A DNA stretch of 64,000 bases, taken from positions 1-64,000 of the forward strand of contig NZ_JAIQDG010000006.1 in the NCBI RefSeq assembly GCF_020037125.1. Reading direction: 5' to 3'. This stretch comes from Myxococcus sp. RHSTA-1-4. Lineage in GTDB: Bacteria; Myxococcota; Myxococcia; Myxococcales; Myxococcaceae. Within the stretch, counting starts at the first letter, position 1, and each line of letters starts with the position of its first letter. The position numbers were made by a program, and so were the translations under genes. This document shows, one piece after another, positions 57,942-63,625 of the stretch. The notes beneath the pieces are model-generated. The model made no database searches and was not told where the DNA came from. It saw only the letters and a list, made by a program, of their open reading frames with translations.

Positions 57942-58070
57942 GGGGCGTTCAACCCGAGACTCTAGGCCATCTGTTGTCAGGCCGTGGATTCGGGGCCGCT
58001 GACGCGGCGGGTCGGGAGCACCGCCGCCGGGAGGTGGAACGGCGATGCGGGAGCCTCCTATGCTCCGGCC

Positions 58071-58970
58071 GTGCGCTCCTCTCCTCGCCCCCTTGTGATT
58101 GCCCTCCTGCTGGCCCTGGCCCCGGTGTCTCCGGCCGTGGCCCAGGACGGCTCGGATCAGCCCCGGCTCCACGAGCTCCGCTTCGACTGGGCTCGGGATG
58201 TCGCCATCACCGGCACGGCCGGCGTGCTGTGGATTTCCAGCGAGACGTTCTTCAAGGACGACCTGGCCCCGCCGGAGTGCCGCTGGTGCGACCGCGCCCC
58301 GGACGGCACCGACACGCTCAACCGGCTGGACCGCTGGGGCCGTGGGCTCGCCGGTGAGACGGAGCAGTCGAGAGACCGCGCCAACACCTGGAGCAACATC
58401 ATGGGCTTCGCCGTGGTGCCCGCCGGCGTGCTCGGGCTCCAGTACGCGGTGGGCAACGGCTCGGGCGCCCCGGACCGGTTCTTCGCGGAGGACGCCACCA
58501 TCATCGTGCAGAGCGCGGTGCTCGCGTCACTCGCCAACCAGACGGTGAAGTTCATCGTCGGCCGCGAGCGCCCCTTCGTCCACCAGCTCCCCGAGGACCA
58601 GAAGCGCCTCACCGAACACCCGACCGACAACAACCTCTCCTTCTACAGCGGCCACACCAACCTCGCCTTCGCCCTGGTCGTCTCCGCGGGCACGGTGGCG
58701 TCGCTGCGGGGCTACGACAATCAGGCGTGGATCTGGGGCGTGGGGCTGCCGCTCGCCACGTCCGTGGGGCTGCTGCGCATGGGCGCGGACAAGCACTATC
58801 TCACCGACGTCGCCACCGGCGCCGTGCTCGGTGCCGCCTTCGGTGTCGCCGTGCCCCTGCTGCTGCACGGCCGCACCGACGAGACGGTGCCCGCCCGCCT
58901 CTCGGGCGGCAACGTGCGGATGACGCCCATGGCCGGTGCCCGTGTCGCCGGCATCTCCGGCACCTTCTGA
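58071..58970 (+). CDS. PAP2-family phosphatase, exported
   Basis: 299 residues. Signal peptide SSPRPLVIALLLALAPVSPAVA is followed by helices and the three PAP2 motifs: KFIVGRERP (K-x6-RP), LSFYSGHTN (SGH) and RMGADKHYLTDV (R-x5-H-x3-D). It should dephosphorylate lipid phosphates or pyrophosphates at the periplasmic face. The loop CRWCDRAPDG has a Cys pair. The chain ends in Phe after a beta-like tail, which may hint at outer-membrane contact. The GTG at 58071 lies at the start of the signal; no in-frame ATG is near. It is divergent from the cyclase gene. Confidence 0.85.
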   Translation: MRSSPRPLVIALLLALAPVSPAVAQDGSDQPRLHELRFDWARDVAITGTAGVLWISSETFFKDDLAPPECRWCDRAPDGTDTLNRLDRWGRGLAGETEQSRDRANTWSNIMGFAVVPAGVLGLQYAVGNGSGAPDRFFAEDATIIVQSAVLASLANQTVKFIVGRERPFVHQLPEDQKRLTEHPTDNNLSFYSGHTNLAFALVVSAGTVASLRGYDNQAWIWGVGLPLATSVGLLRMGADKHYLTDVATGAVLGAAFGVAVPLLLHGRTDETVPARLSGGNVRMTPMAGARVAGISGTF

Positions 58971-59085: not shown

Positions 59086-59994
59086 TCAGTACCCCGCTTC
59101 CGCCGGAGCCACCTCGCCCTCCGAGAGCTGCGCGGGCAGCGCGGACAAATCCCACCGCTGGCCCGCCTCCCACGCCACGGCGCCGGACGTGCCCCAGCCC
59201 GCGCGCACCGCCTCACGGCCCTCGTACTCCAGCCAGAAGACGGACTCCTGCGGCCGGGCCGCCTGGTCCAGGCAGGCGATGTGCGTGGCCGGGCGCCCCG
59301 GCCCCTCCAGCGTCACCGCGAAGGCCTTGTGCGAGTGGCCACACAGCAACCACCGAGGCTGCACCGAGTCCACCAGCCGCCGCGTCACCGGATTGCCAAT
59401 CCAGTACGAGGGCAACGGCCGGGGCGGAGAGGGGTTCTCCTCGCGCGCCCGCTGGACGATGCCGCGCGGCCACTCGTGCACCAGCATCAGGTCCACGTCC
59501 CGCAGTCCGGTCAGCCGCTCCACCTCCGCCGTGCGGAAGTAGCCGGCCTGCTTCATCGTGTCCTGCGTGGTGGGCCGCTTCAGCGGCTGCTCGATGAAGC
59601 GCGGCGCGTGGATGCCCGACAGGTAGACCACCCGCAGCCCGCGCAGCTCCCGCACGCCCGCGCGGCCCAGGTACCACACGTCCGGGGCCAGCTCGCCGCC
59701 GTCCTGCATGTCGTGCAGCGCGGCGAAGTCCTCGTTGTTGCCGCCAATGAAGAACAACGGCCGCTTCACCCGGCGCAGCCCGTCCGCGTACTCCGCGAAC
59801 TCCGCCGGCATGGTCCGCTTGGCGGCCTTGCGCCGGTGGTCGTCCGCGTGGCGGAAGGCCTCCACGTCCCCCACCGCCAGCACCAGGTCCACGCGGCGGC
59901 CGCGCGCCTGTTCCAGCGCGTCCAACCACGTCTCCACGCGGTGGAAGCGGCCGTGGATGTCACCCAGCGCGGCGACCAGGAGGGATTCCGGCAT
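59086..59994 (-). CDS. Metallophosphoesterase resembling lariat debranching enzyme (Dbr1)
   Basis: 302-residue calcineurin-like phosphoesterase. Metal ligands are Asp12 and His14 (LGDIHGRF), Asp43 (VGDVEAFRH), Asn86 (FFIGGNNED), His173 (VHEWPRGI) and His220/His222 (CGHSHKAF). Beyond these, the line GDVEAFR, FFIGGNNE, GGELAPDVWYLGRAGV, RVVYLSGI, YFRTAEVERL, DLMLVHEWPRGI and LLCGHSHKAF follows the block order of eukaryotic RNA lariat debranching enzymes (GDFQAxR, FIGGNHE, GGxVAPNIYYLGxAGV, SGI, SHDWPxGI, SAHLHVKF). Two differences stand out: Asp12 where Dbr1 often has Cys, and Asn87 in place of the GNHE His. Cytoplasmic; substrate unknown. It may be a 2'-5' or other phosphodiesterase, or an inactive relative. 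Confidence 0.75.
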   Translation of the reverse strand: MPESLLVAALGDIHGRFHRVETWLDALEQARGRRVDLVLAVGDVEAFRHADDHRRKAAKRTMPAEFAEYADGLRRVKRPLFFIGGNNEDFAALHDMQDGGELAPDVWYLGRAGVRELRGLRVVYLSGIHAPRFIEQPLKRPTTQDTMKQAGYFRTAEVERLTGLRDVDLMLVHEWPRGIVQRAREENPSPPRPLPSYWIGNPVTRRLVDSVQPRWLLCGHSHKAFAVTLEGPGRPATHIACLDQAARPQESVFWLEYEGREAVRAGWGTSGAVAWEAGQRWDLSALPAQLSEGEVAPAEAGY

Positions 59995-60486: not shown

Positions 60487-63435
60487 TCAGTTGCAGCCCA
60501 GCGGGTACGTCACCTCCACCATGGCGCCGGCCTGCGGGGCCGCGTCGCGGTCGAAGATGATGGCGTTGGTGCCCGCGTCATAGTGCCAGCCGGACGGCAC
60601 CCGGGCGCCATTCACGTCAACGACGATGCGCGCCGGGTCCGCGGGCTGCTCGGACAGCGGGAACTTGCGGTTGAGTCCGAAGGCGCTGTTGGACAGCTTC
60701 TCCAGCGACGCGGCCCAGTTGGGCGTGCAGATGCTCTCCACCGCGCCACCCGTGGCCTGCGCGAGCTGGATGTAGCGGTTGCCGGAGCTGCTGGACGTGG
60801 GGCAGGTGCTCAGGTCCGCCGGCCCGACGATGGCGTTGATGCTCAGCTTCGACTTGTCATTGCCCTTCAGCGCCAGGAAGTACGTCTCGTAGAAGGACAC
60901 CGGCTGCGAGCTGAAGTCCTCCTCGTCCGACAGGAAGATGATGGCCAGCTTCGCCTCCTCGCGCAGGAAGCCGCCGTTGCCGTCACCGGCCAGCGGCGTG
61001 CGCGGGTCGTCCTGCTGATACAGGAGCGGGTCGCTCAGCGCGCGGTGGGCCGCGTCCAGGCCCTGCTCGTTCCAGTGGCACACGCCCACCCGGGTGTTGT
61101 TCGCGAAGACACCCGCCGCGTTCGGGGTGGACGGGGTGATGATGCGCGGCCGCGAGCCATCCACCGGGAACAGGCGCCCGTTCTCACCGCCCTGCGCGCC
61201 GCCCGGGCACTCGGACCAGCCGCCCGGAGACGGGTCCAGGCCCGTGGTGGTGACGCCGATGCGGTAGTCCACCGATGCCTTGTTGGCCGCGGTCAGGAAG
61301 GCCGCGAAGTTCTGCCCCAGGCTCTGCTGCTCCTCCATCATGGACCCGGAGTTGTCCACCACGAACAGCACGTCCACCTTGGCCTCGGACTCCTGGAAGA
61401 AGCGGTCCGTCTGCTCCGCCTTCGTCACGCCGCGGCCCACCAGGCCCGCCGTGTACTCGCCCCCTCCGTTCGCCAGCGTGAAGCGCAGCGCCGCCGCGTC
61501 GTCTCCGTCATCCACCGGCGTGTACGTGGCGGACAGCCGCACCCGGCCGCCCTGGGGAATGGTGTGCGGGAAGCCCGTCGGGCTGGTGACGCTGAACTCC
61601 CCGCCCACCTGCTCCAGCGCCAGGCCCTGCACGTGCACGGGGCCGATGCAGTCATTGACGGCGATGAGCTCCCGAGTGCGCGGGCCGCACGACAGCTTGG
61701 TGATGCCGAAGTCCACCGTGGTGGGCTGCACCGCGAAGCAGCCCTTCACGCCCTCGCCCGTCACGGGCACCAGCGGGTGGCCCGCCGTGGGGTGGTTCAC
61801 CCACGCCTCGGCCAGGCCCGAGAAGCTGCCCTCCGCCGGAGGCTTGAAGCGCACCACCAGCGTCGCCTTCTGCCCCGGTTCCAGCACGCGGTTCTCCACC
61901 GGCTCCGCGGTGAAGGCCGCATCCGAACCCGCGGCGAGCTGCATGGAGGCCAGGTAGCACGCCTCCGGGCCGGTGTTCCGGATGGACACGCCGAGCCCCA
62001 CCTCCGCGCCCACCGGCACCTTCCCGAAGCGGGCCGGCAGCAGCGGCGCGTAATCGCAGGGCTTGAAGACGCGGCCCTCGCCCGTCAGCGCCACCGCCTC
62101 CGTGGAGGTGCTGGCCGTGGTGCGCACTGTCACCGCGAGCTGCCCGAGACTCGGCGCCGTCAGGCCGGAGCGCGGGCTGAAGGTGACGCCCACCTCGGCC
62201 GTGCCGCCGGAGGGCACGGTGATGCTCGCGGGCGCCTGCGCCAGGGTGAAGTAGCCGCCGGCCAGCGTGTCGAGCTGCAGGTGGTTCACCAGCACGTCCT
62301 CACGGCAGCGGTTGATGACCTGCACCTGGCGCGTGGCCGTCATGCCCTCCGCCACCACGCCGTAGTCCAGCTTCCGGGGGAGCACGGTGATGCAGGAGGC
62401 GCCGCCCTCGCCCGTCAGCGACACCTTGGGGCCGGGCGCCGAGGAGCCCTGCTCACGCACGCCAATCTCCACCCGGCCGTCGCGCACGCGGCCCAGGGCC
62501 ACCGGCGTGAAGGCCACGCGCAGCTCCACCGCCGCGCCCGCCGCCAGCACCCCGCTCGCCAGCACCGGCGCGTTCACCACCTTGAAGACACCGCCCGGGT
62601 TGTCCAGCAGCTGCACCCCCGAGTAGCTCAGCGGCTCCGTGCCCTGGTTGCGCACGGTGATGGACTGCTCCGCGGTGGCCCCCAGCGCCACGCGCCCGAA
62701 GTCCACGCGCAGCGGCGTCACCTCCAGCTTCGACGCCACCCCCATGCCGCGCATGGGAATCACCGCCGGCTCGCAGCCCTCGCACACCACCACGTGCAGC
62801 GCCGCCTCCGCCGAGCCCAGCCGCCGCGGCCCATAGGCCACCGGCACCACGCGCGTCTCGCCCGGCGCCAGCGTGGAGGACTGGCCCAGGCCCGCGGTGA
62901 ACTGGTCCGCGTCCGCGCCGTGGATGGACAGCCCCAGCGGACTCTCCACGTCGGAGGGATTGCGCACCGTCACCTCGCGCATCTCCACCATGCCCATGGC
63001 CACGTTGCCGAAGTCGAGCGCCGTGTCCGGCACCTCGACGAAGGCCTTCACGCCGCGGCCATTCACCGGCACCTCGCCCGGCTCCCCCGAGTCGGTGAGG
63101 ATTTCCACCTGGCCCTGCACCACGCCCTCCACCTGCGGCGTGAAGTGGATTTCAAGCTCCTGCTCGGCGCCGGCGGACAGGGTGAAGGGCTCGAAGGGCG
63201 GAATCACCACGTTGGGCACGCTGGAGACGGCGCCCTCCACGCGGTACGACGCGCGGCCGCCGTTGGCGACCTTCAGCTTGAAGGTCTTCGTGCGTCCCAG
63301 CGCCGAGGGTCCGAAATCAATCTTCTCCGGGCGGACCAGGAAGGCGCTCTTCGCCTTCTGGGATGACGGCTGCTCACACGCCACCCCCACCACCAACACC
63401 GCCGCCACCCACGCCACCCACAGAGCCCGTCGCAT
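60487..63435 (-). CDS. Large lipoprotein with ASH/choice-of-anchor-D repeats and a VWA domain
   Basis: 982 residues. Lipoprotein signal MRRALWVAWVAAVLVVGVAC (Cys20 lipidated). Residues about 35-640 hold six or so immunoglobulin-like repeats of about 100-110 residues, each starting with a PxxLDFGxVxxGxxxxxxVxVxNxG-type line (for example VRPEKIDFGPSALGRTKTFK and LEVTPLRVDFGRVALGATAE), which is the choice-of-anchor-D/ASH type. A VWA domain follows (about 690-900) with an intact MIDAS DNSGS in VLFVVDNSGSMMEEQQSL and FLSDEEDFSSQP. The C-terminal 60 residues are a beta domain (VPSGWHYDAGTNAIIFDRDA). It is probably an outer-membrane adhesin or matrix protein. GGAGGACG lies 3 nt before the ATG. Confidence 0.88.
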   Translation of the reverse strand: MRRALWVAWVAAVLVVGVACEQPSSQKAKSAFLVRPEKIDFGPSALGRTKTFKLKVANGGRASYRVEGAVSSVPNVVIPPFEPFTLSAGAEQELEIHFTPQVEGVVQGQVEILTDSGEPGEVPVNGRGVKAFVEVPDTALDFGNVAMGMVEMREVTVRNPSDVESPLGLSIHGADADQFTAGLGQSSTLAPGETRVVPVAYGPRRLGSAEAALHVVVCEGCEPAVIPMRGMGVASKLEVTPLRVDFGRVALGATAEQSITVRNQGTEPLSYSGVQLLDNPGGVFKVVNAPVLASGVLAAGAAVELRVAFTPVALGRVRDGRVEIGVREQGSSAPGPKVSLTGEGGASCITVLPRKLDYGVVAEGMTATRQVQVINRCREDVLVNHLQLDTLAGGYFTLAQAPASITVPSGGTAEVGVTFSPRSGLTAPSLGQLAVTVRTTASTSTEAVALTGEGRVFKPCDYAPLLPARFGKVPVGAEVGLGVSIRNTGPEACYLASMQLAAGSDAAFTAEPVENRVLEPGQKATLVVRFKPPAEGSFSGLAEAWVNHPTAGHPLVPVTGEGVKGCFAVQPTTVDFGITKLSCGPRTRELIAVNDCIGPVHVQGLALEQVGGEFSVTSPTGFPHTIPQGGRVRLSATYTPVDDGDDAAALRFTLANGGGEYTAGLVGRGVTKAEQTDRFFQESEAKVDVLFVVDNSGSMMEEQQSLGQNFAAFLTAANKASVDYRIGVTTTGLDPSPGGWSECPGGAQGGENGRLFPVDGSRPRIITPSTPNAAGVFANNTRVGVCHWNEQGLDAAHRALSDPLLYQQDDPRTPLAGDGNGGFLREEAKLAIIFLSDEEDFSSQPVSFYETYFLALKGNDKSKLSINAIVGPADLSTCPTSSSSGNRYIQLAQATGGAVESICTPNWAASLEKLSNSAFGLNRKFPLSEQPADPARIVVDVNGARVPSGWHYDAGTNAIIFDRDAAPQAGAMVEVTYPLGCN

Positions 63436-63625
63436 AAACGTCCTCCCCACCACGCCCAGGGACCACGAATTCCGTGCCGCTGTACCTCGCGGCTCCGGCG
63501 GCGGGGCCAATGCAACCCGGGTGCCTGCGCTTCACAGGGGGAAGACGTCGAAAGGCCGACGCGGCAAACCTCTGGCCTCCATGGGAAAGGCCCCGCCCTC
63601 CGCGTGGAAGAACATTTCCCACTCG

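Follow-up and report, generated by a model that had tools for sequence, protein, structure and literature searches.

A Dbr1-like metallophosphoesterase of myxobacteria with asparagine at the general-acid position

In PMC10470207, and in the context of the eukaryotic cell, Dbr1 is called the only known enzyme that selectively hydrolyses the 2'-5' links of lariats. A gene of Myxococcus sp. RHSTA-1-4, in a stretch of 64,000 nucleotides that we analysed as a whole (the window), raises the question of whether bacteria hold a relative of this enzyme and of what such a relative may do when the histidine of its catalytic GNHE motif is an asparagine. Among the papers listed by searches of an open-licence library, some of which were aimed at other points, none dealt with a bacterial Dbr1. 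In the accessible parts of PMC4569894, PMC6022877 and PMC7642983 the term 'Dbr1-like' merely names members of the superfamily, and the parts seen of PMC4524724 and PMC12287305 hold nothing on bacterial Dbr1.

The gene and its kinship to Dbr1 and CWF19L1

Running from an ATG to a TGA on the minus strand (59086-59994), the window gene encodes 302 amino acids and lies in a genome of 11.2 Mb and 134 contigs; its closest named relatives, among the matches listed, are Pyxidicoccus, then Myxococcus and Corallococcus. An earlier sequence-only reading had proposed a relation to Dbr1 from a series of motifs, and all of them are present in the translation, at the residue numbers claimed and in the order of Dbr1. 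On the minus strand, they are GDIHG (59950-59964), metal-site motif 1, with His14 and with Asp12 where Dbr1 has its invariant Cys14; GDVEAFR (59851-59871), the GDxQxxR block of Dbr1, with the predicted metal ligand Asp43; FIGGNNE (59731-59751), with the predicted ligand Asn86 and with Asn87 (codon 59734-59736) in place of the general-acid His91; the APDVWYLGRAGV block (59653-59688), common to Dbr1 and CWF19L1; SGI (59611-59619), at the head of the loop that in Dbr1 recognises the lariat; HEWPRGI (59458-59478; HDWPxGI in Dbr1), with the predicted ligand His173; and GHSHKAF (59320-59340; xHxHxxF in Dbr1), with His220 and His222.

A phmmer search with the window protein against 177,635 distinct PDB sequences gave seven matches at E<=1, five of Entamoeba histolytica Dbr1 and two of CWF19-like protein 1. 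The best E-value was 3.7e-24, to Dbr1, and the two CWF19-like protein 1 sequences scored 6.4e-10 and 0.011; no other PDB metallophosphoesterase was matched at E<=1. A profile of 24 proteins from a second bacterial clade, which keeps GNHE and is described below, matched Dbr1 at 4.8e-53 and CWF19L1 at 3.5e-13. Pfam returned general models alone for the window protein (Metallophos, 9.3e-13), which is annotated as a calcineurin-like phosphoesterase, and NCBIfam gave no model above its own cut-off, calcineurin-like phosphoesterase being the best label. In 32 members of the family the Pfam matches were confined to Metallophos, Metallophos_2 and Metallophos_3; none was to a Dbr1-specific C-terminal domain, for which Pfam may have no suitable model. 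The structural match stops at about model residue 261 (about residue 265 in E. histolytica), and some 40 residues remain, against 82 in the C-terminal domain of Dbr1 (273-354 in E. histolytica).

AlphaFold, given a 32-row alignment, modelled the window protein with a mean pLDDT of 91.5 and a pTM of 0.91. With this model, Foldseek gave Dbr1 at 2.7e-21 and CWF19L1 at 3.0e-16, the next family being Rv0805 at 6.3e-8. VIA-align superposed the model on Dbr1 with branched RNA over 249 residues (Z 29.9, rmsd 2.2), with Z 24.3 for CWF19L1 and 18.0 for the next family, aq_1956, so that the overlay on Dbr1 sustains the proposed fold. The model of the GNHE protein of Myxococcus xanthus (pLDDT 92.0) likewise matched Dbr1 in Foldseek at 2.5e-25, with a query TM of 0.83-0.85, followed by CWF19L1 at 6.1e-17 and LpxH at 3.3e-8. 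None of the matches listed belongs to a non-Dbr1 family that is closer in structure, an absence that is no proof.

The generic Pfam and NCBIfam results would be expected of an ordinary metallophosphoesterase of another family, in which the Dbr1 blocks are motifs of the superfamily at large. Against this stand the PDB matches, confined to Dbr1 and CWF19L1 at E<=1, the structural gap between Z 29.9 and 18.0, and the tree, which groups the window protein with Dbr1 and CWF19L1 against four other metallophosphoesterases. We consider this reading to have next to no chance of being right, and the PDB sequence matches, the Foldseek ranking and the Z gap led us to reject it.

Among the calcineurin-like metallophosphoesterases, the product of the window gene belongs to the Dbr1/CWF19L1 branch, a relation that sequence, profile, predicted structure and tree all uphold.

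Two bacterial clades, their spread and history

The bacterial Dbr1-like fold that had been proposed is supported, but the window protein does not stand alone, as a second bacterial clade keeps GNHE and scores closer to Dbr1. In a scan of named genomes, the best 80 of 130 relatives comprised 43 window-type loci (L051-L093), with GNNE in 43 of 43, and 37 of the second type, with GNHE in 37 of 37. Because all 43 loci of the clade agree, an error of sequencing is an unlikely source of GNNE, and we discarded it as an explanation of Asn87. The alteration of a catalytic residue was thus correctly called, and it is fixed in the rows of the clade that were examined, including the 24 GNNE rows of our alignment.

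The titles of the 43 window-type loci are myxobacterial or 'delta', except for one Comamonas. This record, 'Comamonas sp. KCTC 72670', carries both myxobacterial paralogues (L053, BNCN01000003.1; L097, BNCN01000008.1), and its GNNE protein is 84% identical to the window protein; it is probably a mislabelled Myxococcus. Far outside the clade, a haloarchaeal metallophosphoesterase on a plasmid of Salinigranum marinum (L048:2854-3501) has GNNED at the same motif, and another locus, L050, has GNDED at the corresponding one.

Whole-genome searches found an orthologue of the window gene in all 27 genomes of the genus, in one piece and 81-92% identical to the window protein except in one genome (G018), where it is split. 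There it lies in two overlapping pieces in different frames (L030), by assembly error or frameshift. The second gene, 33-39% identical, is present in 23 of the 27 genomes and missing from the window genome and three others; the 12 copies inspected were all GNHE. Of all 61 relatives covered by the whole-genome search, those of the genus included, 34 had matches, among them a weak one (G053) that groups with the outgroups in the tree. Of 195 Myxococcota genomes, 76 had a match, 71 of them strong (E 1e-110 or better), and in the other five the best E was just 1e-28 to 1e-33, so that these may be other metallophosphoesterases.

By its tree labels, the GNHE clade reaches into Myxococcota, Cyanobacteriota, Pseudomonadota, Acidobacteriota, Actinomycetota and Planctomycetota. 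At E<=1e-30 it was found in at least 2 of 244 genomes of the cyanobacterial, at least 1 of 296 of the actinobacterial and at least 7 of 247 of the acidobacterial phylum, query genomes included; these counts are lower bounds, since the E-value was strict and at most 8-10 candidates were scored per genome.

A spread as patchy as this could reflect a Dbr1 gene acquired by bacteria from a eukaryote. Our maximum-likelihood tree of 66 rows included 56 bacterial rows, five eukaryotic rows (human and yeast Dbr1 entered by hand) and four other metallophosphoesterases. The 56 bacterial rows, GNHE and GNNE together, form one group apart from eukaryotic Dbr1 and CWF19L1 (support 99/96), and the five eukaryotic rows form one group as well (99/85). 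At Dbr1 position 14 all 56 bacterial rows have Asp, not Cys, as do the two CWF19 rows. Both the separation in the tree and this residue speak against a transfer, which we regard as very improbable. Asp14 in both bacteria and CWF19L1 suggests that Cys14 may be a later trait of eukaryotic Dbr1.

Within the bacterial group the GNNE clade is monophyletic (100/99), and it was still one group when four long outgroups were removed, by a quick method. Its placement beside actinobacterial rows is weak (86/75), and the root and the deepest order are uncertain. The best tree places GNNE with the bacterial rows, and a joint clade of GNNE and CWF19L1 was not rejected by the AU test (p 0.114). Because that joint tree is left standing, convergence of the His-to-Asn change in GNNE and CWF19L1 is likely, not proven.

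The dN/dS ratio of the window gene was 0.15-0.26 in all seven pairs with genus orthologues, and 0.26-0.54 in six GNHE pairs (Nei-Gojobori, own script). The GNNE variant is under purifying selection and is being kept; decay of the window gene, which we had considered, has no sign in these ratios.

Active site, candidate substrates and gene neighbours

As described in PMC4176325, E. histolytica Dbr1 holds its metal by Asp45, Asn90, His180 and His230 and requires Cys14, an invariant residue. Its His91 sits where it can donate a proton to the leaving 2'-oxygen, and the branchpoint adenine is stacked between His16 and Tyr64. We compared these positions in a residue alignment of 32 GNHE and 24 GNNE rows, two pairs of the latter probably coming from the same genomes. 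The equivalents of His16, Asp45, Asn90, His180, His230 and His232 are present in all 56 bacterial rows, the 24 GNNE rows included. The aspartate of the first motif, which the sequence-only reading had singled out as kept, is there as Asp12; with Asp in every bacterial row it is not peculiar to the window protein. Position 91 is His in 32 of 32 GNHE rows and Asn in 24 of 24 GNNE rows. A second substrate-site change marks the window clade, where Tyr64 of Dbr1 has become Arg60 (Lys59-Arg60, 59815-59820, minus strand); at this position the GNHE rows have 29 Tyr, 2 His and 1 gap out of 32, and the GNNE rows Arg in 24 of 24. In the region of the lariat recognition loop (130-158 in E. histolytica), SGI is followed by a loop of similar length, but its residues do not align with confidence.

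Because the histidine and the tyrosine are replaced but all metal ligands are kept, the GNNE clade differs, to judge by its residues, both from canonical Dbr1 and from a CWF19-like protein whose site is fully dismantled. Two substrate-site changes beside intact metal ligands make a shift of function look likelier than decay, and the kept ligands together with purifying selection favour a retained function. We thus lean towards the view that the window protein is a paralogue with a retained metal site and a changed substrate or chemistry, and not a canonical debranching enzyme. Since the metal-ligand residues and the second-pocket Asp of other superfamily members are present, it would most likely still activate water at a phosphoester. 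With Asn87 it would have no histidine to protonate a leaving 2'-oxygen, and with Arg60 fixed in its place no tyrosine to stack on the branchpoint. Because the equivalents of both His91 and Tyr64 are replaced while the metal ligands are intact, it may hydrolyse or bind a different nucleotide or nucleic-acid phosphoester, not ordinary 2'-5' branched RNA; the leaving group of such a substrate would need no histidine acid, and an extra phosphate could be held by Arg60. Metal binding, catalysis and substrate are all inferred.

Two considerations count against an active hydrolase, namely that conserved metal sites can be structural only and that an enzyme deprived of its general acid may no longer be catalytic. 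In the crystals with branched RNA (5k77/5k78) the Dbr1 chain has Ala at the general-acid position, GGNAE in 5k77, and for this reason loss of His91 probably cripples Dbr1. The main rival to an active hydrolase of changed substrate is a pseudoenzyme, which would bind the GNHE paralogue or a nucleic acid, branched or otherwise, and would not cleave, in the manner of Drn1/CWF19L1 beside Dbr1 in eukaryotes; we give it a minority chance, though a real one. Human CWF19L1, which is non-catalytic, also has Asn at position 91 and keeps Asn90, and in single-sequence searches the window protein scored better against it (6.4e-10) than one GNHE paralogue did (0.15). Dbr1 and the non-catalytic Drn1 form a 1:1 complex according to PMC10470207, and a second gene, GNHE in the 12 copies inspected, is there in 23 of the 27 genus genomes. 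However, human CWF19L1 is without the equivalents of His16, Asp45, His180, His230 and His232, whereas no GNNE row has lost a metal ligand. The GNHE profile also matches CWF19L1, which makes the gap in single-sequence scores a weak one, and a partner role with the GNHE paralogue cannot be general, because 4 of the 27 genus genomes, that of the window included, have GNNE alone.

We continue to prefer the hydrolase of changed substrate or chemistry, and set beside it the question of 2'-5' substrates. msDNA was first found in myxobacteria. It is plausible that the GNHE clade debranches 2'-5' links, for example those of retron msDNA, as a predicted role. For the window protein itself, a true 2'-5' debranching activity, directed at group II intron lariats or retron msDNA and using water or some other residue as the acid, would fit the fold and the blocks of Dbr1, and PMC8989520 describes how, in vitro, Dbr1 cleaves the 2'-5' link of retron RT-DNA. 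RVT_1 has four matches in the window genome; three of them have a complete frame (L177 on contig C76, L178 on C123, L179 on C46), and these match PADLOC retron type XIII best. Against such an activity, the general acid and the branchpoint tyrosine are both replaced, three genomes outside the genus have the gene without any RVT_1, and the 84 locus stretches, two of which (L181 and L113) are probably the same contig, contain nothing homologous to those three reverse transcriptases. We judge this activity improbable.

Outside the genus, the Dbr1-like gene is present in 6 genomes, 3 of which have RVT_1, and absent from 28, 10 of which have it; counting the weak G053 match, the figures are 4 of 7 and 9 of 27. 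The genus itself gives no information on co-occurrence, because both genes are in 27 of 27 genomes. The Rfam msr model had no match in the window genome, but as it had none in any of 14 control genomes either, its silence carries no information. A retron link of the Dbr1-like gene is a hypothesis. Broader still is the idea that bacteria own a 2'-5' debranching system, in which a GNHE enzyme with an Asp pocket would act on branched nucleic acid such as msDNA or group II lariats, and the His-less GNNE protein of myxobacteria would be its partner or successor, parallel to Dbr1/Drn1 or of common origin with them; we hold this to be unlikely, if conceivable.

None of the gene neighbours of the GNNE and GNHE loci points to a substrate. 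These flanking ORFs were called by a rough script of our own, so that some may be wrong. An ORF of 1007 amino acids lies upstream of the window gene on the same strand (60487-63510, minus) and ends 492 bases from it; its homologue is directly upstream in 20 of 41 GNNE loci (of 43; L079 and L088, whose gene the script missed, were left out), as a candidate neighbour with no functional link implied. On the 3' side, a convergent ORF (57984-58970) looks like a PAP2-type phosphatase. In the GNHE-type loci (32 of 39), no Pfam family, as a sign of an operon partner, occurred in more than 4 of 87 flanking ORFs, and the commonest PADLOC families had 2 matches each among the 25 of 119 families listed. 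As to a role in defence, the PADLOC candidate PDC-S10 matched the window protein only weakly (1.6e-4); it matched 23 of 32 family members, at best at 2.1e-9.

We found no close relative of the window protein in phages or plasmids, nor did plasmids yield one for the GNHE protein of M. xanthus. The viral collection gave two distant loci, L131 and L162. In the latter (L162:339-10765, IMG/VR IMGVR_UViG_3300001567_000262), a divergent GNHE Dbr1-like ORF follows BrxL in a set of BREX genes recognised by PADLOC, with PglX in two ORFs, PglZ and BrxL; its longest frame begins 23 bases past the BrxL stop, the likelier ATG being further in. This gene, which falls outside both the bacterial and the eukaryotic group (92/59), could belong to a defence island. 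Proteins distantly related to this BREX-linked one are encoded in 80 phage records (79 Streptomyces, 1 Arthrobacter; e.g. MW365952.1:92243-92965), with 27-29% identity over 95% of its length in the best 20 of the 80. A distant relative of 27% identity is gene 166 of Rhodococcus phage Grayson (L047:2992-3723), which lies among tRNA genes with an RtcB-like RNA ligase gene about 2 kb away.

Comparison with known systems

A bacterial family with the fold, the general acid and the stacking tyrosine of Dbr1, as in the GNHE clade, can serve as an outgroup in tracing how Dbr1 and CWF19L1 arose, and makes one ask how 2'-5' branches are removed in bacteria. Its Asp at position 14 offers a test of the role of the unusual Cys14 of Dbr1. 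The window gene is a natural His-to-Asn and Tyr-to-Arg variant kept by selection, and could separate binding from catalysis in the Dbr1 fold.

The window protein resembles Dbr1 (E. histolytica, PDB 4pef/5k77) in fold, block order and beta-metal ligands, and shares with it the motifs FIGGN-x-E, YLG, SGI, H-D/E-W-P-x-G-I and G-H-x-H. It differs in having Asp12 for Cys14, Asn87 for His91 and Arg60 for Tyr64, in the lack of a detected C-terminal domain and in its place outside the eukaryotic group of the tree. With CWF19L1/Drn1 (human 8ro2_L1) it has in common the Asn at the general-acid position, the YLGRxGI...GLxxVYLSG block and a structural match of Z 24.3, but human CWF19L1 lacks the equivalents of five site residues and the window protein keeps all five. 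CWF19L1/Drn1 carries C-terminal CwfJ domains, whereas the window protein ends at 302 amino acids and has no such Pfam match at E<=1.

Metallophosphoesterases of the LpxH/Rv0805 type share the superfamily fold, at Foldseek values of 6.3e-8 or weaker and with no sequence match at E<=1. LpxH (GNRD) and YfcE-type enzymes (GNCD) work without a general-acid histidine. The GNHE clade (e.g. L096 of Myxococcus xanthus, L117 of Sulfidibacter corallicola and L107 of Streptomyces phyllanthi) is of one family with the window protein, to which its members are 27-37% identical where aligned. Both clades have Asp at position 14, but the GNHE clade keeps the histidine throughout and mostly the tyrosine, and is patchy in six phyla, whereas the GNNE clade is general in one group, the myxobacteria.
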